Below, in pieces: positions 5,002-21,382 of a DNA stretch of 24,681 nt; the stretch's first letter is position 1, and each line of letters opens with the position of its first letter. The DNA lies in IMG/VR virus record IMGVR_UViG_3300009034_000200, positions 1-24,681 of that record, one strand, 5' to 3'. A model generated the notes under the pieces. The model saw only the letters and a list, made by a program, of their open reading frames with translations, searched no databases and was not told the DNA's origin. This DNA comes from a virus. The translations under genes were made by a program, and so were the position numbers.

Positions 5002-5013
5002 GGAATAAAACAA

Positions 5014-5304: not shown

Positions 5305-5314
5305 GAGTGAAACA

Positions 5315-6046
5315 ATGAATAAAGTTAAATCAATAATGTGCAAATACTGGACAGCCTGGCTTTTGACGGTATGTTGCGTTTTACTTTTCATTATTCCAGG
5401 CACACCGGTTCAGGCAGCCTTGACAAAAAGTGTAGCGGCAGTTGACGAATGGGCGGAGGTGGCCCAAAACACAATAAGAGAAGGGGCTACCGTTGATGTA
5501 TCAGGTTGTTATACTGCGACATTACATATATATTGCTGTTTATCGAGTGCAACAGCCCATACCGGAACTGAAATAATTGTCCAACTATCAAGTAATACAT
5601 CCGGTGATGAGGATTGGACGCCGTTGACAAAGTTCATCGGGCCGATAGGAACTGCACACAAAATTGACCTTGGCGGTGATGAGGCCGCCGCTCAAACAGT
5701 TTTGACGGTTACGGACCCTGTTACTAACAATTTAGACCACAACGGGAAATTCATATTTATTGAACATACAGGGACGGTAGCCAACAGTGAAATTGTATAT
5801 CAAACCACCAATAGCGGGGATGCCGGCGATACTATTACAATACTGGATGGTCTTACTAATGCACAGACGGCGGCGGCAAGCGATTTTTATGATATTGACC
5901 ACGCGACTAATTCCGCTGTTGGTATGTATCCGATTCCTTTACCAATGTCGGCAAATCGAGTCAGAGTCATTTATAACAACACCTATGATGCTGATGGTGC
6001 GACTGTTCATACTAATTGTAGAATAACAAAAACAACAGCTTTATGA
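5315..6046 (+). CDS. 243-aa putative virion or surface protein with signal peptide
   Basis: GGAGTGAAACA precedes ATG 5315. The first 34 residues form a textbook Sec signal peptide: a basic start (MNKVKSIMCKYW), a long hydrophobic core (LLTVCCVLLFIIP) and a V-x-A SPase I site (PVQA|ALTK). The mature part is beta-rich and cysteine-containing (VDVSGCYTATLHIYCCLSS), with a repeated hydroxy-rich pattern and the ending NRVRVIYNN. The cysteines would suit an oxidising compartment. An internal Met8 still leaves the hydrophobic core. I know no function. It stands in a row with two further signal-peptide proteins, and its stop overlaps the LamG gene start (ATGA). Placing an exported protein inside a head-and-packaging module is unusual. 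Confidence 0.88.
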   Translation: MNKVKSIMCKYWTAWLLTVCCVLLFIIPGTPVQAALTKSVAAVDEWAEVAQNTIREGATVDVSGCYTATLHIYCCLSSATAHTGTEIIVQLSSNTSGDEDWTPLTKFIGPIGTAHKIDLGGDEAAAQTVLTVTDPVTNNLDHNGKFIFIEHTGTVANSEIVYQTTNSGDAGDTITILDGLTNAQTAAASDFYDIDHATNSAVGMYPIPLPMSANRVRVIYNNTYDADGATVHTNCRITKTTAL

Positions 6047-6918
6047 GAAAATTCCCGACAATATTTCTGCTTCTTTTACTGACAAGTTCAGTTTTCGGCC
6101 AATGGTCGGGCATGAAGCCGATGTTAGGCCGACAAGCCAATCGCGCACATCCACTCGCTCCTGATGCCGACTGCTTATTGATGAACGAAGGCTCAGGTAA
6201 TAAAGTCTCTGATTTGAGCGGGAATGGGAATAATGGAACACTTGTAAACGACACTCATTTTGTTACAGGCAAATTCGGTGGCGCCCTGGAGTTTGATGGA
6301 ACTGGGGATTATGTTACCGTTGCAGATAATCCTACCATTGATTTAGCAGGTAGTTTTACTATTTTGGTCTGGATTAAACCAGGAGATATTACTACCCAAC
6401 AGCGAATAGTTGCTAAAAATCTTGCTTATTATTTTGAGATAAATACGAGTAAACTGAGAACTTATTGTTATGGTCTGAGTGCTCCCGGCTATCATAGCTC
6501 GAATGGGGCGCCAACAATCAATGTTTGGCAACAAGTTGCGGTTACTTATGACGGAACCGCAATTAGGTTTTATTTCAATGGTATATCAGATGGCAGTGCA
6601 GTAGCAACAACTGGAAGCGTTACTAATACAGCTAACGCACTTACATTCGGGGGTGTTGGAATAGGACAACCCTATTTAGGACAAATCGACCATGCAATGA
6701 TTTACAACCGTGCCTTGTCTGCTTCTGAAATTGCCTTACTTTATCGAAAGCCGTTCTGCTTTATGGAACCTTCGTGGAATCCGATTTTATATGGTGCAAT
6801 AAGTGCGCCTTCGGTTGTTCCAACACCTTATTATTATCGAGCAGAGTTTTTTGGATTCGGCTTTGTTATCTTTACTGTTTTTTGTTTTATTATGGGAAAA
6901 AGAAAATGCGCCGCCTAA
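6043..6918 (+). CDS. LamG-domain protein with signal peptide and C-terminal membrane anchor
   Basis: The 291-aa protein starts with a signal peptide (MRKFPTIFLLLLLTSSVFG|QWSG). Residues ~42-235 form a LamG/concanavalin A-like lectin domain with its usual landmarks: LLMNEGSGNKVSDLSGNGN, GALEFDGTGDYVTV, FTILVWIKPG, VWQQVAVTYDG, RFYFNG, GQIDHAMIYNRALSASEIA. The tail has one hydrophobic helix (GFGFVIFTVFCFIMG) followed by KRKCAA, so the predicted topology is type I with the lectin fold outside the cytoplasm. LamG folds generally bind glycans or proteins, so a surface-binding role is likely. Alternatively the VPTP, helix, basic-cluster tail could act as a sorting tag. The start overlaps the previous stop by 4 nt. 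An internal Met23 could give an unexported form, but it has no visible ribosome-binding site. Confidence 0.9.
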   Translation: MRKFPTIFLLLLLTSSVFGQWSGMKPMLGRQANRAHPLAPDADCLLMNEGSGNKVSDLSGNGNNGTLVNDTHFVTGKFGGALEFDGTGDYVTVADNPTIDLAGSFTILVWIKPGDITTQQRIVAKNLAYYFEINTSKLRTYCYGLSAPGYHSSNGAPTINVWQQVAVTYDGTAIRFYFNGISDGSAVATTGSVTNTANALTFGGVGIGQPYLGQIDHAMIYNRALSASEIALLYRKPFCFMEPSWNPILYGAISAPSVVPTPYYYRAEFFGFGFVIFTVFCFIMGKRKCAA

Positions 6919-7859
6919 TATTCCTTTTAATAGTCTTATTGATGGCATCTAACTGCTGTGCCTTACAAAAGAATGTTGCAAGTCAGAAGTGGGTGGTATT
7001 TGCTTTTGACGATACTGACAACTCAGCCAAGACCGGCGATGCCGGTAATATTACAGCTAATCTGAGGATTGATGGTGCGGCGGCTGATGGCGTTGACGAC
7101 ACAAACCCTACAGAGCTTGAGGATGGATATTATATATTTGATTTAACCCAGGGTGAGACCAATGGCGATTACATCTTAATATGTCCTGCCAGCACAACGG
7201 CAAACATTCAGGTTATAGGCTGTCCAATGGCTGCCTGGACTATGCCACCTTATTTCTCTTCATTTTCCATAGATTCCAATGGAAGGATTGATGTGATAAA
7301 GATAGCTGGTACATCTCAGACAGCCAATGACATGTCGGGAGATATTGACGATATATTAACAGATACCAGTACAACCTTAGACGACTTTATAGATACTGAA
7401 ATTGCAGCTATAGTCGCAGCAGTTATTACTAATGCCGCCGGTACGGATATAGCCGCCGACATCATTGCTATCAAGGCTGAAACTGCGAGTATTTTGACTG
7501 ATACTGGAACAACCATCCCCGGTACGATAACAACGGCACAGAATGACCTTGATACTATAACAGGTGGAAGCGGTGTGCTTATAGATACCGATGCAGTTGA
7601 CGCCGATGCTTTGAAAACTGACGCAGTAAACGAGATATGGGCGAAGGCTATGAGTGATTTGGCTGCCGGTGCTCCAAGTGCAACGGCCTCTGTTCTTACT
7701 GCAATCAATTATCTATACGAGGCATGGCGAAACCAAACATGGGCAACATCATCAGAGATTGCAATATACAAAGATGATGCGTCAACGAAATTGGTTGAAT
7801 CAACAATATCAGACGATGGCACAACTTTTAAGCGCGGAGAGATGAGGAATCCTGACTAA
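6906..7859 (+). CDS. 317-aa low-complexity putative tail/fibre protein with signal peptide
   Basis: I place the start at ATG 6906, 13 nt inside the LamG gene, because GGGAAAAAG precedes it and a clean signal peptide follows (MRRLIFLLIVLLMASNCCA|LQKN). An upstream in-frame ATG at 6774 would fuse in the LamG tail read in another frame. The mature protein has a beta domain (KWVVFAFDDTDNSAKTGDAG, then NLRIDGAAADG, DGYYIFDLTQGE). A long Asp/Thr/Ala/Ile-rich region follows (IDDILTDTSTTLDDFIDTEI, then IIAIKAETASILTDTG). It ends in a small domain (AIYKDDASTKLVES, DDGTTFKRGEM). Similar Ala/Thr/Ile-rich regions occur in phage fibre-like proteins, but I cannot name a family. The stop overlaps the next start (TAATG). 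Confidence 0.87.
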   Translation: MRRLIFLLIVLLMASNCCALQKNVASQKWVVFAFDDTDNSAKTGDAGNITANLRIDGAAADGVDDTNPTELEDGYYIFDLTQGETNGDYILICPASTTANIQVIGCPMAAWTMPPYFSSFSIDSNGRIDVIKIAGTSQTANDMSGDIDDILTDTSTTLDDFIDTEIAAIVAAVITNAAGTDIAADIIAIKAETASILTDTGTTIPGTITTAQNDLDTITGGSGVLIDTDAVDADALKTDAVNEIWAKAMSDLAAGAPSATASVLTAINYLYEAWRNQTWATSSEIAIYKDDASTKLVESTISDDGTTFKRGEMRNPD

Positions 7860-8092
7860 TGGCCATAGATAGTCGTGACAAACGTGCTGCTGCAATATCG
7901 GCGGGGATACCATTTATTGTCATTACTCCTTTGGCGGATGGAACTATTAGTGCAGCCGACCGGCAAATGATAGCAGATGTTTATGTTGGCATCCCTGCTG
8001 GGGCCGCTGGTGAGACCATGCACGGCATGATGAGAATGATAAGAATGGTAAGGACTAAACTCCTGCCTTACGGCTCAATGTATATTGAATAG
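7859..8092 (+). CDS. 77-aa hypothetical protein
   Basis: TAATG overlap with the preceding gene. The product starts MAIDSRDKRAAAISAGIPFI, has SAADRQMIADVYVGIPAGAA in the middle and a Met/Arg-rich end (MHGMMRMIRMVRTKLLPYG). Proteins opening 'MAI..RDKRA..I..G.PF' are common small neighbours of phage structural genes, with no function known to me. No membrane segment or signal peptide is visible. Placement between the signal-peptide tail-like protein and the collagen-like protein suggests a minor virion or assembly part. Confidence 0.78.
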   Translation: MAIDSRDKRAAAISAGIPFIVITPLADGTISAADRQMIADVYVGIPAGAAGETMHGMMRMIRMVRTKLLPYGSMYIE

Positions 8093-8099
8093 GTGAATA

Positions 8100-8687
8100 A
8101 TGGGTACAGGAATAGATTTCAGGAAATCTGATGAGCAGTTAATAGCAACGGAAATTGCCAGGAATCTCAAGGTTAAAGACGGGAAACTGCTTTATCGCAA
8201 AATTGCAATACCAATAACATTGCCAGGGGAGAAAGGGCCAAAAGGCGATAAAGGAGAAGATGGTAAGGATGGCAAAGATGGTCGTGATGGCAGGAATGGA
8301 AAAAAAGGATTAAGAGGCGAACATGGCGAAAAAGGTTTAGCCGGTGCTAAAGGTGACAAAGGCGACAGGGGTGAACAAGGAAGACAAGGTGACAAAGGCG
8401 ACAGGGGAGAACAGGGTGATAAGGGACCAAAAGGCGACATCGGCCCCCAAGGCGATAAGGGTGAACGTGGTGAACAAGGTGTAGCCGGCAAAGATGGCAA
8501 GCCCGGCAGAACACCAAGAAAAGACGTTGATTATCGTGATGGTAAAGACGGCGAACCTGGCAAGTCAGCCGAGTTACCTGAATCCGAAAGCATCTTACTA
8601 CTTCTTGATGCAGACCTTGTTGTAGGTCCAACAGGCAAGGCTGCGCTTGAAAAGAAATTTCAGAATATAAAAGTATTAAAGGTATAA
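8100..8687 (+). CDS. Collagen-like fibre protein
   Basis: In this 195-aa protein, residues 43-138 are 32 uninterrupted Gly-X-Y triplets (GEKGPKGDKGEDGKDGKDG and similar), rich in Lys/Asp/Glu/Arg and containing few prolines. This is the bacterial/phage style of collagen triple helix, which relies on charge pairs rather than hydroxyproline. A 42-residue N-terminal cap (IDFRKSDEQLIATEIARNLK) and a C-terminal domain (ESESILLLLDADLVVGPTG, ALEKKFQNIKVLKV) flank the helix and may drive trimerisation or attachment. Phage collagen-like proteins are usually thin side or tail fibres. It has no signal peptide, unlike its neighbours. The underlying DNA is internally repetitive (GGTGACAAAGGCGACAGGG occurs twice, 8350-8408), so the triplet number may vary between relatives. 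Confidence 0.9.
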   Translation: MGTGIDFRKSDEQLIATEIARNLKVKDGKLLYRKIAIPITLPGEKGPKGDKGEDGKDGKDGRDGRNGKKGLRGEHGEKGLAGAKGDKGDRGEQGRQGDKGDRGEQGDKGPKGDIGPQGDKGERGEQGVAGKDGKPGRTPRKDVDYRDGKDGEPGKSAELPESESILLLLDADLVVGPTGKAALEKKFQNIKVLKV

Positions 8688-8690
8688 GCA

Positions 8691-10325
8691 GTGGCAACTG
8701 AAACTACAGCATTGGAATACATAGAGAGAATGGAGCAGTACGAGGCAGACCGCTCAAATTGGAATTCTCTGTATCAGGAATGCGCCGATTATGGCCTGCC
8801 GGGTGACAATCAGATAACGCACACACAGAATCCGGGCGAAAAGAGGGTCGATACCTTCCAAACAGAGGGTGAGAACTCAGTCATCCAGCTTGCATCAGGT
8901 CTTTACTCCTGGATGTTCCCAACGGATGCCAAGGCGTTTACTTTGAAGATTGACGATGAGCAGGCCGGAGATAAAGATGAAGTAAAGCAATATCTTAATA
9001 AGGTGACAGATACTGTTCACGAACACTTGATACAGAGCACCTTCAGGCAGACATTTTTTGAGAATTTGAAATCTCTGGGATGTTTCGGTACAAGCTGTTT
9101 ATATTCTGAGCCGGGCCGTACTCAACCAATTAACTATATAAGCTTTCATATAAAAGACTGTTTCGTTGACATTGACGAAGATGGCAATATAGATACAGTC
9201 TATCGCAGATTTGAGTACACCGCTCGTCAGGCGGTAAAGAAGTTCAAGGAAAAAAACCTTGGTACGACTGTTCTTAACGCCTACAAAGACAATAAACAGA
9301 GGCGCAAGAAGTTCAAGTTTATCCATATCGTAGAGCCGCGAGAAGGCGTTGACGGCAAGAACAGTGACCCTTTGACTATGGACATAAAGAGTATCTATGT
9401 ATGTCGGGATGATAAGTTAATTGTCCAAGAGAGCGGTTATCCTGAAATGCCTTACCAGATAACCAGGTTCGATAGGGATGCCAACGAGAAACTTGGGCGC
9501 TCACCGATGATGAAGATGCTGCCTGACATAAAGCAGCTCGGAGCAATGAATAAGGTACAGATAAAGGCGTGGGAGAAGATGTGCGACCCGCCCATCGTTA
9601 CTCCGGATGATGGAAGCATTTGGCCGCTTGCTACACAACCGGGCGGCGTAATTCATAAAATGCCGGGAGCTGATGACCCTGTATGGTTTGAGTTTAAAGG
9701 TAATCTTGTGGGCCTTAAAGATGCAATCGAAACAATAACACAAAAAATCAAGTCAGGGTTCTTTCTTGATTTGTTCGATGTTCTTGTGGATAGAAAGAAT
9801 ATGACGGCCACAGAGATAAGGGCAAGGATAGAGCAGCAGTTAAGATTTCTGACTCCTATTATCGGCAGACTTCAAAGCGAGCTATTCAATCCGATGATCC
9901 ACAGGGCCATAGGAATATTGGGAAGGGCGAAAAAGCTGCCTGATATACCTGAAGCAATAATGGACAAGGAATATACCATCGAATATCTCGGCCCGCTTGC
10001 CCTTGCAATGAAGACGCTTGAGACTCAGGGTTTCGTTATAGCGATGGAACAATTAAAGTCATTTGGCGAAATGGAACGGTATGAATATCTGGATAACTTT
10101 AATATTGACCAGATTAGCCGCGATTTGCCCAGAAACAACGGTGTACCGGCGACATGGCTGAACGGTGAGGAGGAAGTTGACCAAATAAGAAAGGAACGGG
10201 CGGCTCAGGATAATCTGGCAGCCCTTATGGAAAATGTGCCCGGTCTGGCAAAGGCACTTGGTGATATGAGCAAGAAACCCGAAGATGGCTCGATTACTCA
10301 GGGGATTATGGATGCAGCAGCTTAA
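8691..10325 (+). CDS. Portal (head-tail connector) protein
   Basis: This 544-aa protein has the layout of the T7/Bbp-type head-tail connector family. The N-terminal helical segment (ALEYIERMEQYEADRSNWNS) leads to 'QECADYGLP'. The conserved region DTFQTEGENSVIQLASGLYSW-MFPTD follows. The wing/stem part contains LGRSPMMKMLPDIKQLG and MNKVQIKAWEKMCDPPIVTP. The C-terminal MTATEIRARIEQQLRFLTP and LQSELFNPMIHRAIGIL are typical of this family. It forms the dodecameric ring through which DNA enters and leaves and to which the gp11-like adaptor binds. The start is GTG at 8691 after AAGG (8679-8682). No nearer ATG keeps the N-terminus. Its last 14 nt overlap a 40-aa ORF. Confidence 0.94.
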   Translation: MATETTALEYIERMEQYEADRSNWNSLYQECADYGLPGDNQITHTQNPGEKRVDTFQTEGENSVIQLASGLYSWMFPTDAKAFTLKIDDEQAGDKDEVKQYLNKVTDTVHEHLIQSTFRQTFFENLKSLGCFGTSCLYSEPGRTQPINYISFHIKDCFVDIDEDGNIDTVYRRFEYTARQAVKKFKEKNLGTTVLNAYKDNKQRRKKFKFIHIVEPREGVDGKNSDPLTMDIKSIYVCRDDKLIVQESGYPEMPYQITRFDRDANEKLGRSPMMKMLPDIKQLGAMNKVQIKAWEKMCDPPIVTPDDGSIWPLATQPGGVIHKMPGADDPVWFEFKGNLVGLKDAIETITQKIKSGFFLDLFDVLVDRKNMTATEIRARIEQQLRFLTPIIGRLQSELFNPMIHRAIGILGRAKKLPDIPEAIMDKEYTIEYLGPLALAMKTLETQGFVIAMEQLKSFGEMERYEYLDNFNIDQISRDLPRNNGVPATWLNGEEEVDQIRKERAAQDNLAALMENVPGLAKALGDMSKKPEDGSITQGIMDAAA

Positions 10326-10434
10326 ATTCGATGATAGAGTTCAATTATTTTGTTCGTTTCTTGCGATAGTTTTAGCTGTCATAGCTTTGATATTAAACTA
10401 TATAAACGAAATAGATATAGCCGAGTTACACTAA
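10312..10434 (+). CDS. 40-aa single-pass membrane peptide overlapping the portal end
   Basis: ATG 10312, 7 nt after GGGG (10301-10304), opens a 40-residue frame in a different phase inside the last codons of the portal. It ends at TAA 10432-10434, where the next gene's ATG begins (TAATG). It reads MQQLKFDDRV, then one continuous hydrophobic segment of about 20 residues (FCSFLAIVLAVIALILNYI), then an acidic end (NEIDIAELH). Coupling on both sides, a good ribosome-binding site and complete filling of an otherwise empty 108-nt gap support it. It could be a holin-like, spanin-like or membrane-docking peptide, but none of these can be shown. Confidence 0.6.
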   Translation: MQQLKFDDRVQLFCSFLAIVLAVIALILNYINEIDIAELH

Positions 10435-10697
10435 TGCCGCAGCTTAACGAGGAACAGAAAGCCGAAGTAATGCGCAGGATTGAGCGCTCTGCTGCTTTTC
10501 AGAGGACGTTCACCGGCAAGGACGGCGAGCTGGTATTGTCTGAACTAAAAAAGATGCGCAGGGGTTTTGACCCCGACCCATATATTAACGCATACAATAC
10601 ACGAATGAGAGATTTATTGGACTTTATTGATACTACAATGAGCCAGGATGTAGAAAGCGCCCGGAAAATCCTGGAAGAACAGAAGAAAGAGGAATGA
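10434..10697 (+). CDS. 87-aa helical hypothetical protein
   Basis: ATG 10434 overlaps the stop of the 40-aa peptide. An upstream in-frame TTG (10350) would translate the peptide's DNA in another frame and is rejected. The product (MPQLNEEQKAEVMRRIERSA, then FQRTFTGKDGELVLSELKKM, and a C-terminal helix ending ILEEQKKEE) is helical and charged. 'F.RTF....G..VL..L' followed by a region with a PxxxxxxxG.R..L.F/I pattern is seen in small phage proteins next to portals, sometimes called Bbp19-like. That similarity is tentative. It is probably a virion or assembly accessory. Confidence 0.8.
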   Translation: MPQLNEEQKAEVMRRIERSAAFQRTFTGKDGELVLSELKKMRRGFDPDPYINAYNTRMRDLLDFIDTTMSQDVESARKILEEQKKEE

Positions 10698-10698
10698 T

Positions 10699-10827
10699 AT
10701 GACAGTAAAAGGCAGAAGAGTCGTGCATTGTCACGGCAAAAACAAAAGTAAGACAATATCAAGGCATAGAACTCACAAAGCAGCGGTTAAGGCTCATAGA
10801 GCTATTCAAGCCAATAAGAAAAGGTAG
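10699..10827 (+). CDS. 42-aa basic, histidine-rich peptide
   Basis: ATG 10699 comes 1 nt after the preceding stop, with AAGAGGA upstream, and the frame ends at TAG 10825-10827. The product (MTVKGRRVVHCHGKNKSKTI, then SRHRTHKAAVKAHRAIQANK) has many Lys/Arg/His residues and almost no acidic ones. Short peptides with an 'H.T..KA..H/Q.RAI' helix are frequent in phage structural operons. A role in DNA or capsid contact is only a guess. It is the last gene before the terminator at 10854. Confidence 0.6.
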   Translation: MTVKGRRVVHCHGKNKSKTISRHRTHKAAVKAHRAIQANKKR

Positions 10828-10844
10828 TTAAGCTATAGCTTAAC
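10827..10844. repeat. Perfect 18-bp palindrome
   Basis: GTTAAGCTATAGCTTAAC is its own reverse complement across all 18 bases. It starts at the last base of the stop codon of the 42-aa gene and lies 9 nt before the terminator stem. As DNA it has the form of a dimeric-repressor operator. As RNA it gives at best a short-loop hairpin. Confidence 0.6.
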
Positions 10845-10853
10845 AAATTGAAC

Positions 10854-10875
10854 GCCCCGGAAACGGGGCTTTTTT
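10854..10875 (+). terminator. Rho-independent terminator between portal unit and scaffold/capsid unit
   Basis: A GCCCCG/CGGGGC stem (10854-10859 with 10864-10869) closed by a GAAA tetraloop is followed by six Ts (10870-10875). The scaffold ribosome-binding site (GAAAGGAA) starts about 6 nt later. No promoter fits between. Confidence 0.88.
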
Positions 10876-10893
10876 AATTGAAAGGAACTGAAA

Positions 10894-11736
10894 ATGTCTG
10901 ATCCCGCAAACTCACCAGCAGGTGACCCGGCCAACTCAGGCGATGCTGTAAGCGTTGTTGATGTTGACGGAAACTTTACTGAGAACTGGACTGAGCAGTT
11001 CGATGAGGCCGATCGGCCTACGTTGGAACGCTTTACAAAAACAGGATTTAAGAGTTTGGGCAAATCGTATGTAGATTTACAGCGGCAATTTAGAAGTCCT
11101 GATGATTATGTCAAGATGCCCAAAGAAGATTCATCAGACGACGAGAAGGCCGAATTTCACCGGAAACGAGGAGTGCCGGATGACGCTAAGGGTTACAAGT
11201 ACGAGCAACCGGAAACACTTCCAGAGATTCTCAGAAGTGATGAGGAAGAAATGGCGCTTTATTATCAATTAGCCAAGAGCGCCAACCTTACTCCTGCGCA
11301 ATTCAAGATTATGGCAGATGGACATTTTTCCAACATGGAGAAAGTTCTCGCTGCTAATGATTTGATTGCTGAAGATGAAAACCGAAAGGCCAACTCTGAG
11401 GCCGAGAAAACATTAAGGAAGAAATTCGGCAAGGCATACGAAGAGAGAGTGGCAAGGGCCAATGCCGTTATGCTAAAGTACGGCGGAGATGAAGCGGTGG
11501 CCGCCTTAGGGCTTGAGAACAATCCTCTGATGGTCGAATTCTTTGATAAAATCGCCGAGGACATGGCCGAGGACAGAATCAAGGGCATAACGCAAACGAC
11601 CGTTCCTACGAACCAGGCTTTAGATGAACAAATGAGAGAACTAAGAAAGCATCCCGCCTATTACAATAGCTCTCACCCGGAACACAAGGAAGTAATGGAA
11701 AAGAGAAAACAATTATCACTGCAAAGAACAGCATAA
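10894..11736 (+). CDS. Capsid scaffolding protein
   Basis: This 280-aa acidic protein lies directly upstream of the capsid gene region, where podoviruses encode the scaffold that guides procapsid assembly and then leaves. It has a disordered Pro/Ala/Asp start (MSDPANSPAGDPANSGDAVS), then ENWTEQFDE. The next segment is YVKMPKEDSSDDEKAEFHRK-RGVPDDAKGY, a pattern common in scaffold-like proteins ('P...DE..AF...LGVP..P..Y'). Long charged helices follow (LIAEDENRKANSEAEKTLRK, KFGKAYEERVARANAVMLKY). The tail HPAYYNSSHPEHKEVMEKRK is basic, as expected for the capsid-binding helix-turn-helix. Good AAAGGAA start signal. Identification rests on composition and position. Confidence 0.85.
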   Translation: MSDPANSPAGDPANSGDAVSVVDVDGNFTENWTEQFDEADRPTLERFTKTGFKSLGKSYVDLQRQFRSPDDYVKMPKEDSSDDEKAEFHRKRGVPDDAKGYKYEQPETLPEILRSDEEEMALYYQLAKSANLTPAQFKIMADGHFSNMEKVLAANDLIAEDENRKANSEAEKTLRKKFGKAYEERVARANAVMLKYGGDEAVAALGLENNPLMVEFFDKIAEDMAEDRIKGITQTTVPTNQALDEQMRELRKHPAYYNSSHPEHKEVMEKRKQLSLQRTA

Positions 11737-11748
11737 GGAGAAAAAGTA

Positions 11749-12042
11749 ATGGTATCCGACAGGCCGATTAAAATGTTCATCTACCAACCCCTCTATTTGA
11801 AGGGCAAGGGCGTTAAACCTGAGTATGTAAATTGCAAGACCTACAAATTCCCATACGCCAGAATAGAAGTAGGCGATGTATTCACAGGAGAGAAACGAGT
11901 TGCGGAATTTCTCAAGATGAAAGAACGCTCCGTAAGCAAGGTAGTATCGGTAACGTACAATTACGCCGACATGACCTGCGGCATAATACTCGAAGACAAG
12001 ATTTTCAATACAATGGAGAAATTAAACAAATATGTAAGTTGA
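11749..12042 (+). CDS. 97-aa hypothetical protein between scaffold and capsid
   Basis: A strong AAGGAGA precedes ATG 11749. The protein (MVSDRPIKMFIYQPLYLKGK, FPYARIEVGDVFTGEKRVAE, then KVVSVTYNYADMTCGIILED) looks like a compact alpha/beta or small beta-barrel fold, with no membrane or signal segment. I recognise no family. Lying between scaffold and capsid genes with a strong ribosome-binding site, it is probably made in quantity and could be a head accessory or assembly factor. Its stop is followed by a 156-nt non-coding leader of the capsid gene. Confidence 0.83.
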   Translation: MVSDRPIKMFIYQPLYLKGKGVKPEYVNCKTYKFPYARIEVGDVFTGEKRVAEFLKMKERSVSKVVSVTYNYADMTCGIILEDKIFNTMEKLNKYVS

Positions 12043-12198: not shown

Positions 12199-13161
12199 AT
12201 GGCTATTACACTAAGTGGAGGCATTCCGACAAACTTTGTCGATGACTTCAAAGGCGACCTGTATCACGTCTGCCAGCAAAAAAAGTCACTTCTGGAAAGG
12301 GCTGTAAAGATTGAGCCTATCATGGGCGCTGAAGACAAGGCGTTCGATATGATAGACAAAATCGAGATGCAGCGCAAAGAAGGACGAAACCCGGAAACGC
12401 CTCGAAACGATATATCCACACAAAGACGGTGGGTATTCCACGACCCTTATCATAACGCGTTCCAATTCGACAAGGACGATGACCTCGAACACAAGCTCGA
12501 CCCTGCCGGCGCAACTGTTACCGCTCTTAGGCGTGGCAGGAACCGGCAAGTGGATGATATTATTCTGGCCGCCTTCGATGCAACTGTTACATCCGGTAGA
12601 CGGAACAACTCAAGCTCGATTACCTGGGCGTCCCAGGGCGGCGACACAGCCTATACAGACACATCCGGGGGGCGGACGATAAATTACGCCTGTACAGAGG
12701 GCAACTGTTCGTCTGCCGATACCGGAATGACAGCGGAAAAGGCGGAGTTGATTGTCGAGTACTTCGCTAAAAACGAAGTTGATGAGGACATTCCGATTTT
12801 CTGTCTTATATCACCACGTCAGTCCACGCAATTGTTTGGTCAGGAGCAGTACGTCAACGCCGACTATAACAGCCAAAAACCTCTCGTAACCGGACGTTTC
12901 CTGCGTGAGTGGATGGGCATCAACTGGATTCAATCCAACAAGATTGTGAAAGGTTCGAGCAACGATATTGGTGCCGCTGCCGATGTCTATGAGTGCTGGG
13001 CGTGGGCACGGGACGGGATAATTCTCGGAGTAGCCGATTCAATCACAGTCGAAATGTCCATTCGTGACGACCTCTCATACGCTCAGCAGGTCTACGTTCA
13101 CATGAACATGGGAGCGATGCGCCATGACGAGGACAAGGTTCTGAAAATCGAATGTCAATAA
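12199..13161 (+). CDS. Major capsid protein
   Basis: I start at ATG 12199, 6 nt after GGAAAGGA. The in-frame ATG at 12169 lacks a ribosome-binding site and would add the leader stem as coding sequence. The 320-aa product (MAITLSGGIPTNFVDDFKGD) fits the HK97-fold capsid proteins of podoviruses by size, composition and gene order. It has an extended E-loop-like region (DKIEMQRKEGRNPETPRNDI, then RRWVFHDPYHNAFQFDKDDD). There is a glycine/serine-rich insertion (SGRRNNSSSITWASQGG). The C-terminal DDLSYAQQVYVHMNMGAMRH-DEDKVLKIE resembles the end of phage capsid proteins ('..A.QVY.....GA.R.....V..I'). It forms the icosahedral shell with the scaffold. No protease gene is seen nearby and the N-terminus has no long delta domain, so maturation is probably scaffold-dependent. 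Confidence 0.9.
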   Translation: MAITLSGGIPTNFVDDFKGDLYHVCQQKKSLLERAVKIEPIMGAEDKAFDMIDKIEMQRKEGRNPETPRNDISTQRRWVFHDPYHNAFQFDKDDDLEHKLDPAGATVTALRRGRNRQVDDIILAAFDATVTSGRRNNSSSITWASQGGDTAYTDTSGGRTINYACTEGNCSSADTGMTAEKAELIVEYFAKNEVDEDIPIFCLISPRQSTQLFGQEQYVNADYNSQKPLVTGRFLREWMGINWIQSNKIVKGSSNDIGAAADVYECWAWARDGIILGVADSITVEMSIRDDLSYAQQVYVHMNMGAMRHDEDKVLKIECQ

Positions 13162-13180
13162 TTTTTTGAAAGGAAAAACT

Positions 13181-13990
13181 ATGTCTTACACAAATTACAA
13201 CTGCGAATTTAGGCGGAACAAGATTACTCTGCCGCCCGGTGCGCGATTAGTTGACGCCGCGGACATATTCAGTCCCCATGCCTCACAGATATATACGCTT
13301 GGCACTATTCTTGAAATGGATGATGGTACTGGCAGAATGTTCCGCTACTGCAAAAACTCCTCAGCCGCCACTCTTGCCAAAGCTCTTATGAATGTGGCGC
13401 AAGTTCACGATGCTCAGGCAATCACATCAACAGTTCAAACAGCTTATGGCGCTTCAGCGGGTGCGACAAAGTTTGATGTGCTGCAAACATCCGGACACGC
13501 ATGGACTGCCCATGCTCTTATAGATGGCTGGCTACTTGTCGGTGATGGCGGAACGGCAATGAGCGATATGTATTTTATTACCGACAATACATTGACCTCT
13601 ACTAATGTTGTTAATGTCGAAATAGCCGACCGAGGCGGTCTCAGAACTGCCATTGCCGCAACCGATGATGTCGTTCTCTTTAGAAACAAGTGCAGGGACA
13701 CTATCGTTGCCCCAACTACTCAGACCAATGGTGGTGGTGCTGTCGGCGTATCCCTTGTTGATGTAACAGCAAGCTATTACTACTGGGCGCAATACAGAGG
13801 CTACTGTCCTATGGTTCTTGATACGACTGATACCATTGTTGTAGGTGAGCCTGTTGGCAGGGCGGGAACTCTCGATGTTGCCGGATGTGTCGGCCTGGTT
13901 GCAAATGACGGAACCGACCAGGTGTGGGGTGTATGTGTGTATGCCTCTACTAACGCTGAGTGTGCGATTATTGACCTGATGCTCCCATAA
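13181..13990 (+). CDS. Putative head decoration/structural protein
   Basis: ATG 13181 follows GAAAGGAA. A TTG at 13166 in the same frame overlaps that ribosome-binding site and is rejected. The 269-aa protein (MSYTNYNCEFRRNKITLPPG) is beta-rich and lacks a signal peptide. It has KFDVLQTSGHAWTAHALIDG-WLLVGDGG in the middle. Near the end it has TLDVAGCVGLVANDGTDQVW, a pattern like the small beta-barrels of head decoration proteins that pair with HK97-type capsids. It follows the capsid gene by 19 nt with an almost identical start signal, so similarly high expression is likely. Decoration is the best guess. A tail or capsid-fibre protein is possible. Confidence 0.82.
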   Translation: MSYTNYNCEFRRNKITLPPGARLVDAADIFSPHASQIYTLGTILEMDDGTGRMFRYCKNSSAATLAKALMNVAQVHDAQAITSTVQTAYGASAGATKFDVLQTSGHAWTAHALIDGWLLVGDGGTAMSDMYFITDNTLTSTNVVNVEIADRGGLRTAIAATDDVVLFRNKCRDTIVAPTTQTNGGGAVGVSLVDVTASYYYWAQYRGYCPMVLDTTDTIVVGEPVGRAGTLDVAGCVGLVANDGTDQVWGVCVYASTNAECAIIDLMLP

Positions 13991-14006
13991 AAAGAAAGGA
14001 AAAACT

Positions 14007-15581
14007 ATGAAAAGTAAAATTGGAAAAGTAATAGCTCCGATACTTCTGGTACTGTTGTTAATGGGGGTAGTGCTGTTCGTTATGTTCTCTCCTTCACAGG
14101 CGGTCCCGATCGGCGGCACTTATCCTGAAAGAATAGGTGCTTTTACCGGCCCTGTAGGCGGCACTGCCCAGGATGATAACATCAAAGCCTCACTTGACCT
14201 TGCTCATACCGACCTTGATGCGATGATTACCTACGATACCGATGTTCTTAGTCTATTGGGATTAGGTAACGGCAATGTCTATTATGTGGATGCAAGCGTA
14301 GCTGGAAGCGCCGGAACAACGTGGGCGACAGCAGTAGCGACAATAGATGCTGCTGTTAATCTGGTTGCTGCGGCCACTGAAGCCGATACGCACGCGATTA
14401 TCTTGGTTGCCCCAGGCCATACTGAGACACTCGGTACTGGTGCTGATGGTTGTGATGTTGACCAAACCGATGTTACAATTATCGGCCTTGGTAAAGGCGA
14501 GAACCGCCCAAAGATTGACTACGATACCGCTACGGATGAATTTGTAATCGGTGCTGATGACGTTGTTATCCGCAACCTATGGTTCCATGCCAATGTTGAT
14601 TCAGTAGTTAAAGCTATTGATGTAGAGGCCAACTGCGAGAATTGGGCCATCATAGATTGTGTGTTTGATACCGAGACTCCAGGGACGGATGAGTTTGACG
14701 ATGCGATTCTCACTAATGCAGGTTGTTACGGAGGTCTGATCAAGAATTGTCTCTTTGATATGGGCGGAACTTCAAATGCCAATACGCAATCTGCTATTTG
14801 CATGCTTGATTCGGACTATACCTTGATTGAAGGCAATAGAATCTTTGGTGATTATGCTGTAGCCTGTATCGAGCAAAAGACTACTGCGGCTGATTTTCTG
14901 ACAATTAGAGACAATCTTTTAGTCAATGGGATTATCGGTGGTACTGCCGGATTAAATACAGTAGCTTGTATTTCATTGGCGGATGACTCCCAGGCCATAA
15001 TTACTGACAACAGATGCTTCACCAATGTTGCAACACCTAACTTGGCAATAGTGGCACCAGATGGTCTCCTAAGCGGCAATACCTATTGTGAAACTGAAGG
15101 CCCTGCTGCCGGAAGTGTTCCCATTGGTTCTGCTTCAGTAGGTGAACGATGTGTCCAAAAGAGTTTATCTACAATAGCAAACGGCGCTAATAACTTGTTC
15201 GCAGTTAGCGGCGGCCCGATAAAGATGACGGAGTTCGTAATTTACATTGACAGTGTTGTGCAAACACAGGCAACGCTTGTCGGTGGAAATATCGACCCGA
15301 CAACTCCTGCAACAGATACAACCTTTGGCACAGATGGCACCGCAGTGGATTTCACCGCTGCTGCTGCTGGTACTGTCTTTACATGGGATGGTGTCCTTGC
15401 GACAGATTTTGCAAAGCAGGCTAACGGCGTTGTACTTGGAATGGGTACTGACATTTCGTATGGACTGTTTGTTCCTGTTGGCATGATAGAACTTACATCT
15501 TCTGCTGCATCAACAGGCACTTTGACGGTTTATATGACGTATCTACCACTTGGGCCACACTCTATTGTGACTCCACAATAA
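14007..15581 (+). CDS. Beta-helix protein with N-terminal signal peptide/anchor
   Basis: The 524-aa protein opens with a basic start, a 20-residue hydrophobic core (VIAPILLVLLLMGVVLFVMF) and a possible SPase I site (SPSQA|VPIGG). Residues ~95-360 carry the marks of a right-handed parallel beta-helix of the pectate-lyase/tailspike type. These are evenly spaced rungs such as HAIILVAPGHTETL, VTIIGLGKG, VVIRNLWFH, WAIIDCVFD, GLIKNCLFD, YTLIEGNRIF and QAIITDNRCF. A C-terminal beta domain (IKMTEFVIYIDSVVQTQATL, then LTVYMTYLPLG) follows. Beta-helix proteins of phages usually bind or cut surface glycans. No catalytic residues can be assigned. It is the last gene before the terminator at 15596 and shares its 16-nt start context (GAAAGGAAAAACTATG) with the gene before it. 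A membrane-anchored tailspike would be odd. Confidence 0.88.
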   Translation: MKSKIGKVIAPILLVLLLMGVVLFVMFSPSQAVPIGGTYPERIGAFTGPVGGTAQDDNIKASLDLAHTDLDAMITYDTDVLSLLGLGNGNVYYVDASVAGSAGTTWATAVATIDAAVNLVAAATEADTHAIILVAPGHTETLGTGADGCDVDQTDVTIIGLGKGENRPKIDYDTATDEFVIGADDVVIRNLWFHANVDSVVKAIDVEANCENWAIIDCVFDTETPGTDEFDDAILTNAGCYGGLIKNCLFDMGGTSNANTQSAICMLDSDYTLIEGNRIFGDYAVACIEQKTTAADFLTIRDNLLVNGIIGGTAGLNTVACISLADDSQAIITDNRCFTNVATPNLAIVAPDGLLSGNTYCETEGPAAGSVPIGSASVGERCVQKSLSTIANGANNLFAVSGGPIKMTEFVIYIDSVVQTQATLVGGNIDPTTPATDTTFGTDGTAVDFTAAAAGTVFTWDGVLATDFAKQANGVVLGMGTDISYGLFVPVGMIELTSSAASTGTLTVYMTYLPLGPHSIVTPQ

Positions 15582-15595
15582 GTTAGTAAGTTTTT

Positions 15596-15629
15596 ATGGG
15601 GTAGGTTTAATCGCCTGCCCCATATTTTT
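15596..15629 (+). terminator. Rho-independent terminator between capsid and tail units
   Basis: An 11-bp stem (15596-15606 ATGGGGTAGGT with 15613-15623 GCCTGCCCCAT, two wobble pairs) with a 6-nt loop is followed by ATTTTTC. A TTTTT run also precedes the stem (15591-15595). The tail adaptor's ribosome-binding site (AAGGGG) follows a few bases later. Confidence 0.82.
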
Positions 15630-15643
15630 CTAAGGGGCAAAAA

Positions 15644-16408
15644 ATGTCGATGACTGAGAACGCCGCCAATATTGCAGTCTGCAACCAGTCTCTTGGCTTA
15701 TTGGGTGCGGCGGAGATAGAGGTTGACGGCTCGACCACAAATCACGGTTACTGCACCACGTTTTTCGACACATCACGCGATGAGATATTAGTCTGTCATC
15801 CCTGGAACTGGGCAAGAAAAAGGGCTTATGCCATACAGACCACAGACCGGATATTCGGCCCTGACAACGCCTTTACTGTGCCTTCCGACTGTCTTAGAGT
15901 CCTTACTATAGAAGAAGACCCTCATGCCGTATGGAGTAGAGAAGGAAGTGTCATAATTACAGACGAAGGCAATGCTGCCCAGGACTACGATGATGACAGT
16001 GTGGACTATCTTGCCGGAGAGTACATCTCTTCTGATGATTCCGGTGACGACCTCACTTACCTGGTTGATACGGCTTTTACATCGAGTGATGAAACGAGCG
16101 ACTTGAGCTCATATTGTACGAGCCAGGGTGACGACTTAGAAATCTTAAAAGTAGAGTACATCTATCAGGTAACGGATGTTTCGACCTATCCTGCCTATAT
16201 GAATCAATGTCTGGTTGTGAATCTTGCGATAAAACTCTCCTCTCCAATAGTACAGGGTGCGACAACGGGATTATCACTTGATTTACAAGCAATGTTATTC
16301 GGAGGACCGAAAAATTACGGCTATTTACAAATGGCCAAATCAATTGACGCCCAGGAGGGCGGCGGCGAGGTAATCAAAACAAGTAAATGGCTGGATGCAA
16401 GGAGATAA
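15644..16408 (+). CDS. Tail adaptor (T7 gp11-like tail tubular protein A)
   Basis: This 254-aa protein has the hallmark of the gp11-like head-to-tail adaptors. An N-terminal helix (ENAANIAVCNQSLGLLGAAE) is followed by 'FFDTSRDEILVCHPWNWARK-RA' at residues 40-61, corresponding to the family's 'Y...RDE.LR.HPWNFA.KR'. The next segment (FTVPSDCLRVLTIEEDP) is also conserved in it. The middle part has an acidic beta region (GEYISSDDSGDDLTYLVD). The C-terminus returns to helices typical of these adaptors (YPAYMNQCLVVNLAIKLSSP, QAMLFGGPKNYGYLQMAKSI). It forms the dodecameric ring beneath the portal and carries the nozzle encoded by 16647-20465. Starts with AAGGGG, GC-poor spacer, ATG. Identification is firm at family level. 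Confidence 0.92.
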   Translation: MSMTENAANIAVCNQSLGLLGAAEIEVDGSTTNHGYCTTFFDTSRDEILVCHPWNWARKRAYAIQTTDRIFGPDNAFTVPSDCLRVLTIEEDPHAVWSREGSVIITDEGNAAQDYDDDSVDYLAGEYISSDDSGDDLTYLVDTAFTSSDETSDLSSYCTSQGDDLEILKVEYIYQVTDVSTYPAYMNQCLVVNLAIKLSSPIVQGATTGLSLDLQAMLFGGPKNYGYLQMAKSIDAQEGGGEVIKTSKWLDARR

Positions 16409-16411
16409 AAA

Positions 16412-16639
16412 ATGAGATACCAAATACATCATCAATCCAAGAGAGATGGAAGCACCAAATTTATAGCTCAATCGGATGATATAGCTGAAAACGAAGAGGC
16501 ACAGCAAAAATTTAGAGAATGGTCTTTGGATATTGGCTCAAGACATCCACTTCCAGAAGGTTATCAATGGCTTGTTTGTAATGAGAAGTCTAATTATTTT
16601 GCCTGCACCTTTAACGAGGAAAGTTTAGTCCAGACTTAA
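16412..16639 (+). CDS. 75-aa hypothetical protein between adaptor and nozzle
   Basis: AAGGAGA precedes ATG 16412. The product (MRYQIHHQSKRDGSTKFIAQ, then EEAQQKFREWSLDIGSRHPL) ends in PEGYQWLVCNEKSNYF. Short proteins with a 'HPLPEGY.WL.CNE....F' ending occur between adaptor and nozzle genes in podophages, but I know no assigned function. It has a small alpha/beta look, no membrane segment. Cotranscribed with the tail genes, so a minor tail or chaperone role is the likeliest context-based guess. Confidence 0.8.
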   Translation: MRYQIHHQSKRDGSTKFIAQSDDIAENEEAQQKFREWSLDIGSRHPLPEGYQWLVCNEKSNYFACTFNEESLVQT

Positions 16640-16646
16640 CTATTAA

Positions 16647-19600
16647 ATGAAAAAAGCACTTATTATCTTATGTCTTTGCAGTCTTGCTATAGCACAGGAC
16701 AAGCCCTATCGAAGTCTTAACTCCTTTGGTTCGGGCGCATTATCAGAGCTATTGAGCGCGCGTGAGGACCTCTCCAAATATCATTCCGGCTGCTCGGTAA
16801 TGGAGAACTTTATCCCGCTTCCCCAGGGCGGCGCCGAGAAGCGCCCGGGGACTGTCTATGTGGCCGAGTCCAAAGAGAATACAAAGATACGGCTTATTCC
16901 CTTTCAATACTCTACTGAAAAATCATTCATAGTTGAATTGGGCAACCAATATGCCCGATTCTTTACTGATAGCGCTCCCGTCAATACCGGCAATGGCACA
17001 GAGACCCTGGCTCCCGGTAATATTATAGCACATTATCTACTCAATGAAACAATAGGAACTACCGTTGCCGATGATGATGGCGCAACTCATAACGGCACGG
17101 CAACTGCAGATTGTTCTATACTTAATGCGGATGGTAAGGTTGGAACCGGTTGCTTTGACTTGGATGCTCAATACACGGTTGAGATGTCAGACCATGCTGA
17201 TTTTAGTTTTACTGATAATTCAAACGATTCTGCTTTTAGCATTTCTTGCTGGGCCTATGTAACTCAGCAAACTAATACTCAAAATCTCATATCAAAGTGG
17301 CGAGACGATTCATTACTGAACGAATGGCGATTCAGTTTGAACAATGACCGAAAACTGCAATTACATTTAAGCGATTCCGGTTATGATTTAACCAGCAACA
17401 GGATTGCCCATTGGAAATTGAATGAGGATGCTGCTAATAAAACCGTCTTGGATGATGATGCTACTTCTCACGATGGCCTTACCCAAACAAATAATACGGG
17501 GGTCTTAACTGCAACAGGCATAGTGGGCAAATGCCTGGATTTTGGTGGCGCAGATTGCGTGGTTATTACCAATGACCATGATGAATTGAGTTTCGGCGAT
17601 AGTACAAACGATAGTGCTTTTAGTATCTCTGCATGGGTATATGTAACAGATGGAGATACGCAATCTATCCTTTCAAAATACGATGCAACTGCCGGTGCTG
17701 CTGTACAAGAGTGGTTATTTCTCATAAATGTTGCTCAAGGTCTATCTGCGAGTTTAATCGATAAGAGTGCCAATTCCTCTAAACAAATGAGCACAGACGA
17801 TGCTCTTACAACCGGCTGGCATCACGTTGTACTTACTTACAGCGGTGTTGAGAGTGATAATGCGGACGATAGTATAATATTATATGTTGACTCTGTAGCC
17901 GTATCTCAAACTGGGGATGATATTGGCACTTATATTGCAATGGAAAATACGGCTACCAAGGTGGTTATAGGGGCAGCCTATGATTCAAGTGGAAACCTTG
18001 GCTATTTCTTTGAAGACAAAATAGACAATGTTATGTTACTTAATATTGAGCTTACCCAGGCTCACGTTGACGGGCTGTATAACGATGGCGGCGGAACAGA
18101 AGATTTAACAGTATCTAATGCTTTGGTCTCGGCAATATCAGATGATGCTATTTCTGTGGGCTGGCATCATCTTGTCTGTACCTATAGTGCACCTGCCGAT
18201 GAGACTACAGCCGCCGATGGCATAATCCTCTATGTAGATGCCGCTGTGGTAGATTCCACCGCCACTAATAATGCAAATTATACCGCAATGCAGAACGGCG
18301 CTGAGGAAATAAGAATCGGCTCTCAGCGCAACTCTGCTGATAGTGCAAATGAAAAATTCTGGGGAGACAAAATTGACGCAGTTGCAGTATTCGGCGATGT
18401 TCTAACGCCATCTGAAATATCTACTCTTTATGACGAGACTCCATACGAGATAGAAACGCCTTACTTAACCGCCGACCTTTTTGAGCTAAAGTTTGAGCAG
18501 TCTGCCGATGTTCTTTACATTACACATCCGGATTACGAGCCGAGGAAATTATCACGCAATTCTGATGTAGATTGGACTATGCCTGTCTATGGAGCAGAGA
18601 ATGGCCCGTTTAGAGACCAGAATACAGATGAGGCAGATACAATTACAGCGAGTGCAACAACAGGCTCGATAACCCTAACGGCCACGGGATGTACTCCCTT
18701 TTTGGAAGGAGGCACAGCCGGACATGAGCCAGGCGGATCTGCTGCAACCAGCAAATCTCAGACAGGGGCCTTATTTAGATTAACCCATCCTGTTGACACA
18801 TTAGAGTATAGTGAAAAACTTGAAGATAATTACACTAATTCCCAGGTTGAAAATACAAGCTGGCTGGATTGTGGGACGGTTTACAAGGGTACAACCTGGT
18901 ATCTTACCACTCTGGGAACCTGGACGGGCGTTTTAGAGATACAGCGAAATTACACAGTCGGGGCGGCCCACGGAGCTTCCGGCTGGGAGAAAGTCTTTGC
19001 CTATGCCTCAACTGATGACAGGAATGTTTCAACGAACTCCACGGAGGACGAGGCCGCCGCTTCCTACCGTGCCATTCTTACCGAATCAGGCGATGCGGCA
19101 GAGGTTTGCAAAGTTTATTTTAGAACAAATCAAACCGACCACGATGGGATTATACAAATCACGGGTGTTGCAAGTCCAACTTCGGCCACGGCTACAGTCC
19201 TGACGACTCTTGGCTCGACCAACGCAACTCACAAATGGTCGGAAGGCTCCTGGAGTAATTATCGGGGCTGGCCTCGCACAGTTACTTTCTTTGAAGACCG
19301 CCTGACATTTGGTGGGAATATCTCTCAGCCGGATACCATCTGGGCCTCCGTAACCGCTGATTACGAGAATATGACCGAAGGAGCCGATGATGACTCGGCC
19401 CTTCTTTTCACTCTGTCCTCAAGAGAAGTAAACATTATCAACTGGCTTGTAGGCAAGAACAAAATCCTCATTGGTACAAGTGGGGCCGAATGGACTCTTG
19501 CCGGCTCATCTGATGAGCCTCTTACTCCGTCCAATGTAAAGGCCGAGCAGCATTCAACCTATGGCAGTGCCGATTTGCAATCAACACTTGCAAATGAAAG

Positions 19601-20465
19601 CGTTCTCTTCTTTCAGCGCGGCGCAGAAAAGATGCGGGAACTGGCCTATAACTGGGAGCTTGATTCGTATGTCGCACCGGAAATGACTATTCTTGTCCCT
19701 GAGATAACCGGTGAGGGAATTACGGATACGGCCTACCAGCAAACTCCAAATCCCATTCTATGGTGTGTTAAGGAGAATGGCGAGATTGCAATATTCGTTT
19801 ATGAGCGCAAGGAGCAGATCACATCATGGTCAACACAAATTACCGATGGCGATTTTGAATCGGTGGCCGTAATTTCCGGGGACGCTGAAGACCAGGTATG
19901 GATATCGGTAGAGCGGGTCATTGGCGGTAACACGAAAAGATACATCGAGTATTTCTCTGAGCGTGATTTCGGCACGGACCTCGATGATGCCTTCTATGTT
20001 GACTGTGGAATTACTTATGACTCCACAGCAACTACAACCATTACCGGTCTTGACCATCTTGAGGGCGAAACTGTGGCCGTTCTCGGCGATGGTGCTATCC
20101 TGGACAATGAGACGGTTGCCAGCGGGCAGATAACCATAGATGAATCCTCTACCGTTCAGGCAGGTCTTCTTTATGAGGCAAAACTAAGAACAATGCCGTT
20201 AAGCTGGATTGCCGAGGGCATGACTATACAGGGGAGAATCAAGAGAATCAACCAGGTAATCGCCCGCTATTATAACAGTGGTGATTTCAACGTGGGCAGA
20301 AGCGCCACTATAGGAGAGACCATCAGCATATCCGGTATGGATACTGACGAACAACCGATAACTTTCCCGGCCGGCTATGACCGGCCCGGATATGTCTATG
20401 TTTACCAGAACTCAGCAGAACCTCTAACTCTGCTGGCTCTGATGGTTGAGTTTATGATATTTTAA
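16647..20465 (+). CDS. Tail nozzle (T7 gp12-like) with nested LamG insertions and a signal peptide
   Basis: The 1272-aa protein contains the nozzle core of gp12/tail tubular protein B relatives. Near the N-terminus lie YRSLNSFGSGALSELLSARE and SGCSVMENFIPLPQGGAEKR-PGT (48-69). The core resumes at about 597 with TPYLTADLFELKFEQSADVL-YITHPDYEPRKL. Later landmarks include NYRGWPRTVTFFEDRLTFGG and NIINWLVGKNKILIGTSGAE. Between ~120 and ~597 sit two LamG domains, one inside the other (separate entry). The protein begins MKKALIILCLCSLAIA|QDKP, a perfect signal peptide with an AxA site. A TAA stop lies immediately upstream in frame, and no ATG, GTG or TTG occurs before the conserved core, so this start is forced. 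The ribosome-binding site is weak. The nozzle closes the channel and holds fibres, normally assembling in the cytoplasm, so the signal peptide is unexpected. The LamG domains are probably receptor-binding. Confidence 0.92.
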   Translation: MKKALIILCLCSLAIAQDKPYRSLNSFGSGALSELLSAREDLSKYHSGCSVMENFIPLPQGGAEKRPGTVYVAESKENTKIRLIPFQYSTEKSFIVELGNQYARFFTDSAPVNTGNGTETLAPGNIIAHYLLNETIGTTVADDDGATHNGTATADCSILNADGKVGTGCFDLDAQYTVEMSDHADFSFTDNSNDSAFSISCWAYVTQQTNTQNLISKWRDDSLLNEWRFSLNNDRKLQLHLSDSGYDLTSNRIAHWKLNEDAANKTVLDDDATSHDGLTQTNNTGVLTATGIVGKCLDFGGADCVVITNDHDELSFGDSTNDSAFSISAWVYVTDGDTQSILSKYDATAGAAVQEWLFLINVAQGLSASLIDKSANSSKQMSTDDALTTGWHHVVLTYSGVESDNADDSIILYVDSVAVSQTGDDIGTYIAMENTATKVVIGAAYDSSGNLGYFFEDKIDNVMLLNIELTQAHVDGLYNDGGGTEDLTVSNALVSAISDDAISVGWHHLVCTYSAPADETTAADGIILYVDAAVVDSTATNNANYTAMQNGAEEIRIGSQRNSADSANEKFWGDKIDAVAVFGDVLTPSEISTLYDETPYEIETPYLTADLFELKFEQSADVLYITHPDYEPRKLSRNSDVDWTMPVYGAENGPFRDQNTDEADTITASATTGSITLTATGCTPFLEGGTAGHEPGGSAATSKSQTGALFRLTHPVDTLEYSEKLEDNYTNSQVENTSWLDCGTVYKGTTWYLTTLGTWTGVLEIQRNYTVGAAHGASGWEKVFAYASTDDRNVSTNSTEDEAAASYRAILTESGDAAEVCKVYFRTNQTDHDGIIQITGVASPTSATATVLTTLGSTNATHKWSEGSWSNYRGWPRTVTFFEDRLTFGGNISQPDTIWASVTADYENMTEGADDDSALLFTLSSREVNIINWLVGKNKILIGTSGAEWTLAGSSDEPLTPSNVKAEQHSTYGSADLQSTLANESVLFFQRGAEKMRELAYNWELDSYVAPEMTILVPEITGEGITDTAYQQTPNPILWCVKENGEIAIFVYERKEQITSWSTQITDGDFESVAVISGDAEDQVWISVERVIGGNTKRYIEYFSERDFGTDLDDAFYVDCGITYDSTATTTITGLDHLEGETVAVLGDGAILDNETVASGQITIDESSTVQAGLLYEAKLRTMPLSWIAEGMTIQGRIKRINQVIARYYNSGDFNVGRSATIGETISISGMDTDEQPITFPAGYDRPGYVYVYQNSAEPLTLLALMVEFMIF
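17022..18436 (+). other. LamG domain split by a second LamG domain (within the nozzle gene)
   Basis: Residues ~126-246 are the first half of LamG-A (IIAHYLLNETIGTTVADDDG, SAFSISCWAYVT, WRFSLNNDRKLQLHLSDSGY). LamG-B is complete at ~251-485 (RIAHWKLNEDAANKTVLDDD to KIDNVMLLNIELTQAHVDGL). LamG-A then resumes at ~486-596 with exactly the missing half (VGWHHLVCTYS, GIILYVDAAVV, KIDAVAVFGDVLTPSEISTL). The inserted stretch is bracketed by an 8-nt direct repeat GATTTAAC at 17385-17392 and 18102-18109, 717 nt (239 codons) apart and in frame. A and B are paralogous (SAFSIS.WAYVT and SAFSISAWVYVT). Confidence 0.8.
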
Positions 20466-21381: not shown

Positions 21382-21382
21382 T

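Follow-up and report, generated by a model that had tools for sequence, protein, structure and literature searches.

The window analysed here is the whole of the 24.7-kb linear IMG/VR virus record IMGVR_UViG_3300009034_000200 (24,681 nucleotides). It has a podovirus gene order, and five of its genes, including that for the tail nozzle (16647-20465), open with predicted signal peptides (SPs) of the Sec/signal peptidase I (SPase I) type. Our principal finding is that such an SP is predicted on every nozzle (23 of 23) of one clade, which had full SH-aLRT support (100%) in a tree built without the SP columns; judged from sequence, these nozzle SPs are conserved, restricted to particular genes and maintained by selection. 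The best reading of this pattern, to which we give about an even chance, is that the outer virion proteins would be exported, cleaved and joined at lysis to DNA-filled heads made in the cytoplasm. SPs were called throughout with a rule set of our own.

The product of gene 16647 matches PHROG family phrog_376 (E 6e-180, residues 25-1269 aligned), its family profile finds the PDB tail nozzle 8ck1_A (E 7e-199), and the gene is a single copy lying after the adaptor gene and before the GNAT and internal virion protein genes. The clade comprises the window, L012, L013, L016, L102 and most of L104-L121. Every clade nozzle with a readable N-terminus has an SP, the automatic misses being start-codon problems. 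Homologues without the hydrophobic segment, which the original prediction of signal-peptide-like starts had named as evidence against itself, were found only outside the clade; there, nearly all nozzle homologues examined lack an SP, and the distribution over 75 nozzles needs only 4 state changes. SP-like nozzle N-termini occur elsewhere on the tree in L017 (hydrophobic, with a poor cleavage site), L019 and L021 (with an alternative start, an ATG after the SP). The full-length nozzle used as a single-protein query had no match in viral_contigs, and homologues were reached with alignment queries.

The predicted cleavage sites are strongly patterned. Among 24 nozzle SPs (sites ambiguous in L012 and L116), position −1 is A in 22 and G in 2, position −3 is A, V, S, L, T or I (mostly A or V), position −2 is mostly bulky, and position +1 is mostly Q, E, D or A. 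Predicted cleavage falls 8-13 residues (mostly 9-10) ahead of a conserved F-x-x-G motif. The SP-less nozzles of nine annotated relatives have about 10 residues ahead of an F-x-GE-type motif, as do those of nearly all distant contigs, so that a cleaved nozzle would equal an ordinary one. In the window, the precursor has 26 residues before the F and shows the short N-terminus of the family only after predicted cleavage; the long N-terminus is a variant trait of these nozzles, not a defining trait of the nozzle family. Neutral simulations run at the constrained rate of the nozzle itself left 11 of the 23 tips SP-like on average, and all 23 were kept in 0 of 300 runs; at half that rate, all 23 were kept in 6 of 300. 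The earlier suggestion that a shared export-based step would be unusual is thus supported by conservation, gene specificity and selection.

The SP-bearing gene is also the only apparent source of nozzle protein. A single phrog_376 match was found in each of G001, G002, G003 and G005 (genomes of 45-47 kb), and the two matches in G004 are complementary parts at opposite contig ends, a pattern that fits a complete genome with circular permutation. Because there is one nozzle gene per genome, the virion nozzle must derive from the SP-bearing gene. The stretch of the window nozzle from the SP to the conserved domain contains no ATG, GTG or TTG, and the SP therefore cannot be a mis-called start.

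The other genes of the window place the nozzle in a familiar order, in which small and appendage-like genes (3991-8687) stand between the terminase and the portal:

2351-3991, + strand: large terminase, assigned from its location (annotated relatives also have it upstream of the portal; gene order shared with HTVC010P and BPP-1); no SP
5315-6046, + strand: SP protein with no function assigned; predicted cleavage between GTPVQA and ALTK; SP-bearing orthologue at L187 9871-10575
6043-6918, + strand: SP protein with a LamG lectin-like domain (PF13385, E 5e-29), a C-terminal hydrophobic segment and a KRK tail; predicted cleavage between SSVFG and QWSG
6906-7859, + strand: SP protein whose C-terminal third is conserved; predicted cleavage between SNCCA and LQKN; SP-bearing orthologues in L002 and L187
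8691-10325, + strand: portal (PF12236); no SP
10894-11736, + strand: scaffold/protease position; no SP
12202-13161, + strand: major capsid protein (PF19821); no SP
13181-13990, + strand: decoration-like protein, encoded downstream of the capsid gene; no SP
14007-15581, + strand: beta-helix spike/fibre-like protein with a C-terminal beta-sandwich; predicted cleavage between MFSPSQA and VPIG
15644-16408, + strand: adaptor (tail tubular A; phrog_394); no SP
16647-20465, + strand: tail nozzle (tail tubular B; phrog_376) with LamG insertions; predicted SP MKKALIILCLCSLAIA followed by QDKP
20468-23080, + strand: GNAT-like, internal virion protein B-like and 565-aa proteins (synteny with HTVC100P); no SP

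All five open reading frames (ORFs) named in the original prediction, at 5315, 6043, 6906, 14007 and 16647, are present, and their signal-peptide-like starts hold up as Sec/SPase I-type sequences conserved in homologues. Each has a basic n-region of 2-3 net positive charges, a 10-residue hydrophobic core (mean Kyte-Doolittle value 2.7-3.7) and an A/G-type site with small residues at −3 and −1 and no Pro at +1. The start of gene 6906 is an internal ATG inside a longer ORF opening at GTG 6774. The original prediction overlooked that three of the five (5315-7859) sit between terminase and portal. The only further window gene over the first cut-off, 7859 (h 2.4), was judged a false positive.

Five of the 13 window genes of at least 200 aa thus carry an SP. 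Among genes of that size, SP-type starts were found in 8 of 550 (1.5%) in 72 contigs of relatives outside the clade, a rate at which the window count has p ~1e-6 (hand calculation), and in 40 of 184 (21.7%) in the clade. A few clade rows are doubly counted in this last figure and in the family counts below, since L111/L183 and L117/L186/L187 are pieces of one genome each. Nine annotated phage records contained 8 SP-like N-termini in 254 genes, on proteins of 58-151 aa that are mostly of lysis type, except for one of 917 aa.

When clade genes were grouped by homology and SPs counted per family, the signals proved to be confined to the nozzle and to spike-, cement- or lectin-like proteins. Core and internal proteins had none: portals (0/16), scaffolds (0/21), capsid (0/22), decoration-like (0/23), adaptors (0/23), terminases (0/6), GNAT (0/15), internal-B-like (0/15) and the 565-aa family (0/14). 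In the tail, the predicted SP border lies between adaptor and nozzle. The same set recurs in relatives. One 45-kb genome has SP-bearing orthologues of 5315, 6043 and 6906 on one piece (L187) and of 14007 and the nozzle on others (L117/L186), and L002 has SP-bearing counterparts of 6043, 6906 and 14007. A small protein of L187 (15762-16136, − strand) has a Tat-like N-terminus, MNRRNFLKRCSILPFVGSLAAVAKSKA. Outside the clade, SPs were seen on appendage-type proteins in L017 and L018, on four consecutive genes upstream of an SP-less nozzle (L135 3287-7591) and, in other phage types, on neighbours of the major capsid protein that share the C-terminal domain of 14007 (L239 5002-6417, L240 3544-6381, L241 4906-6390); distant homologues of that domain in L242 and L244-L247 lack one. 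Because SPs recur on appendages outside the clade, appendage SPs are more widespread than nozzle SPs.

The spike-like product of 14007 belongs to a family with an SP in 20 of 23 clade members, the other three having been matched only from residue 74, 218 or 332. Its structural model (md280497e07af, mean pLDDT 68) consists of an SP helix, a low-confidence linker, a beta-helix and a C-terminal sheet, with phage tailspikes and pectate lyases as the best PDB matches. By eye, the C-terminal domain is homologous to a family of 175-aa SP proteins, in which all eight members have an export signal, one of lipobox-like type (LLCG before C, in L116 at 2605-3159). The 175-aa model combines an SP helix with a beta sandwich of jelly-roll/cement-like fold, and the structure that it matches best is a trimeric phage cement protein, at a borderline Z of 8.8. 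On these models, the SP-bearing set would thus be of an exterior, beta-rich type. An alignment of nine 14007-type proteins held no stretch conserved enough to serve as a scan query. In L115, a lipoprotein-like gene (9789-9992) lies between adaptor and nozzle.

The hydrophobic segment at the C-terminus of 6043, which ends in KRK and gives the protein a type I membrane topology, was overlooked in the original prediction. The orthologue in L187 (40% identical) has an SP; the counterpart in L002 keeps SP and C-terminal segment and lacks LamG, and its CAA end is kept as well despite the missing domain. At 6830-6918 of the window, the sequence for this segment and the KRK tail overlaps the ribosome-binding site and start of 6906. 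The product of 6906 was considered as a lipoprotein on account of its SNCC sequence and rejected, as it has no lipobox. Two other observations concern the neighbourhood of these genes: two adjoining small basic proteins at 3991-4417 look like a tandem duplication (common ends GRMMTERSQILKTKFGE and GRLMTKRSQILKTNFGE), and a collagen-like GxY repeat protein directly upstream of the portal (8100-8687) has no SP in the clade.

One SP-bearing nozzle, that of L102 (3225-7091), has a Cache-HAMP-HisKA histidine kinase gene (272-2209, − strand) ~1 kb away, on a contig of a Planctomycetota metagenome-assembled genome (MAG). No portal match was found in this MAG, and the L102 nozzle is possibly a remnant, a domesticated gene or a binning error. 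The remaining Planctomycetota nozzles with readable N-termini have no SP, and a scan of 392 Planctomycetota genomes for the 175-aa family, run without a positive control, found no match. With one L102 nozzle set against SP-less others and a MAG without a portal, the SP is not simply a trait of Planctomycetota phages, and an assignment of the host to Planctomycetota is not supported.

Under the reading that we prefer, the five N-termini would be functional Sec signal peptides cut by the host SPase I. Head, portal, adaptor and internal proteins would be made and packaged in the cytoplasm, while the nozzle and the exterior parts (spike/head-fibre-like, cement-like and LamG lectin proteins) would be exported, cleaved and kept in the periplasm or envelope. 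Breach of the inner membrane at lysis would bring the two pools together, and heads already filled with DNA and capped by the adaptor would then receive the mature nozzle and outer proteins. The parts of this scheme that we infer are export, cleavage, the place where the pools meet, the stability of a nozzle-less intermediate and DNA retention before nozzle addition. The original prediction had offered export to the envelope and completion outside the cytoplasm as two of its options; together they fit the sequence evidence best, with export and late assembly as their conjectural elements. A broader claim, which we put slightly below even, is that virion assembly in one lineage of tailed phages is divided between two compartments, the nozzle and whole outer coat being sent through Sec and joined to the heads once the membrane opens.

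Several points weigh against this scheme. The whole case is built on sequence, with SPs called by a rule-based predictor. Cysteine content, compared as a gauge of whether a need for disulfides is the reason for export, does not differ clearly between SP-bearing and other proteins. In the records of five relatives no phage-encoded signal peptidase was recognisable, though a host enzyme would suffice; these records likewise showed no tyrosine-integrase domain. In P22-type phages, moreover, the nozzle helps to retain packaged DNA, so late addition of the nozzle would require some other plug, for which no candidate was identified.

Foremost among the alternatives is dual localisation, in which chains escaping export would build the virion and the exported nozzle, spike and lectin would coat the cell or block receptors, for exclusion or as decoys. 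The SP, LamG domain and C-terminal anchor of 6043 do amount to the topology of a membrane-anchored periplasmic lectin, and phage-encoded proteins sent to the host envelope are on record, among them the signal-sequence-bearing outer-membrane protein Lom of lambda (PMC12309495) and the exclusion lipoproteins of mEpimmI phages (PMC11893012). However, the window nozzle offers no start codon downstream of its SP from which a cytoplasmic form could arise, no second nozzle gene exists, and such uniform SP conservation on an essential structural gene exceeds what a side function would need; we therefore regard this explanation as unlikely. An exclusion protein would be a dedicated, non-virion accessory, which a single-copy structural gene is not, and the proposal that these proteins change the host surface or exclude other phages accordingly fails for the nozzle, whereas 6043, 6906 and 5315 may have such a role.

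The SP might instead serve as a membrane tether and assembly timer, holding nozzle and spikes unfolded or anchored at the inner membrane, with virions finished there rather than after lysis. The sequence evidence for export serves this idea equally, and the long hydrophobic cores of 14007-type SPs suit it; but the conserved −3/−1 motif implies cleavage, which occurs on the outer face of the membrane, and we find the idea improbable. The same motif also tells against the proposal that uncleaved N-termini act as membrane-insertion tips in the virion. The position of the nozzle at the tail end and the poorly cleavable N-terminus of L017 would agree with it, but the strict A/G at −1 with small or aliphatic residues at −3, the restoration of canonical nozzle length by cleavage, and the occurrence of this class of signal on cement-like proteins outside the tail (once replaced by a lipobox type) all disfavour this option, and we give it little credence. 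Least credible of all is an artefact of mis-called starts or chance hydrophobic N-termini. Five nozzles (L115, L120, L121, L123 and L021) indeed have no ATG at the SP start, but in L120 (~9998-10003), L121 (~9971-9976) and L123 (~5536-5541) an apparent ATT start stands ~7 nt after a strong AAGGAGG Shine-Dalgarno sequence with the SP in frame, and the comparative data (conservation across 23 phages, selection and a low background) contradict such an origin.

Tailed phages are taken to complete the whole particle in the cytoplasm. A clade whose sole nozzle gene carries a predicted cleavable export signal would either contradict this or reveal a new use of SPs. The proposed border is precise, with the adaptor inside and the nozzle outside, and it predicts new mature N-termini in virions. 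A practical consequence is that filtering viral metagenomes by signal peptide may misassign structural proteins to host or accessory genes. We know of no tailed phage with an export signal on its nozzle and outer virion proteins, and no precedent for an SP on a nozzle or any other virion protein was found in open-access literature text.

By portal and nozzle, the closest cultured relatives are Pelagibacter phages such as HTVC010P. HTVC010P/BPP-1-like podoviruses share the order of terminase, portal, scaffold, capsid, adaptor, nozzle and internal virion proteins, as well as homologous portals and nozzles (the latter ~32-41% identical); however, their nozzles have no SP and begin ~10 residues before an F-x-GE motif. 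Filamentous phages of the M13 type also make virion proteins with signal peptides, their coat proteins joining the particle at the envelope, but these proteins and the genome type are unrelated, and the particle is extruded through the membrane, whereas the window encodes a tailed-phage portal and capsid. Lom and the mEpimmI lipoproteins are separate accessory proteins, in contrast to the virion's own nozzle and spikes here. In P22-type phages the tail is assembled stepwise from adaptor, nozzle and spikes, the nozzle being added after packaging, and the tail proteins are cytoplasmic and are not known to carry an SP; it is exactly between the first two of these steps that the border between SP-free and SP-bearing proteins falls in the window. 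What the sequences indicate is an SP-bearing version of an otherwise known podovirus type, and two-compartment assembly, if proved, would be categorically new.

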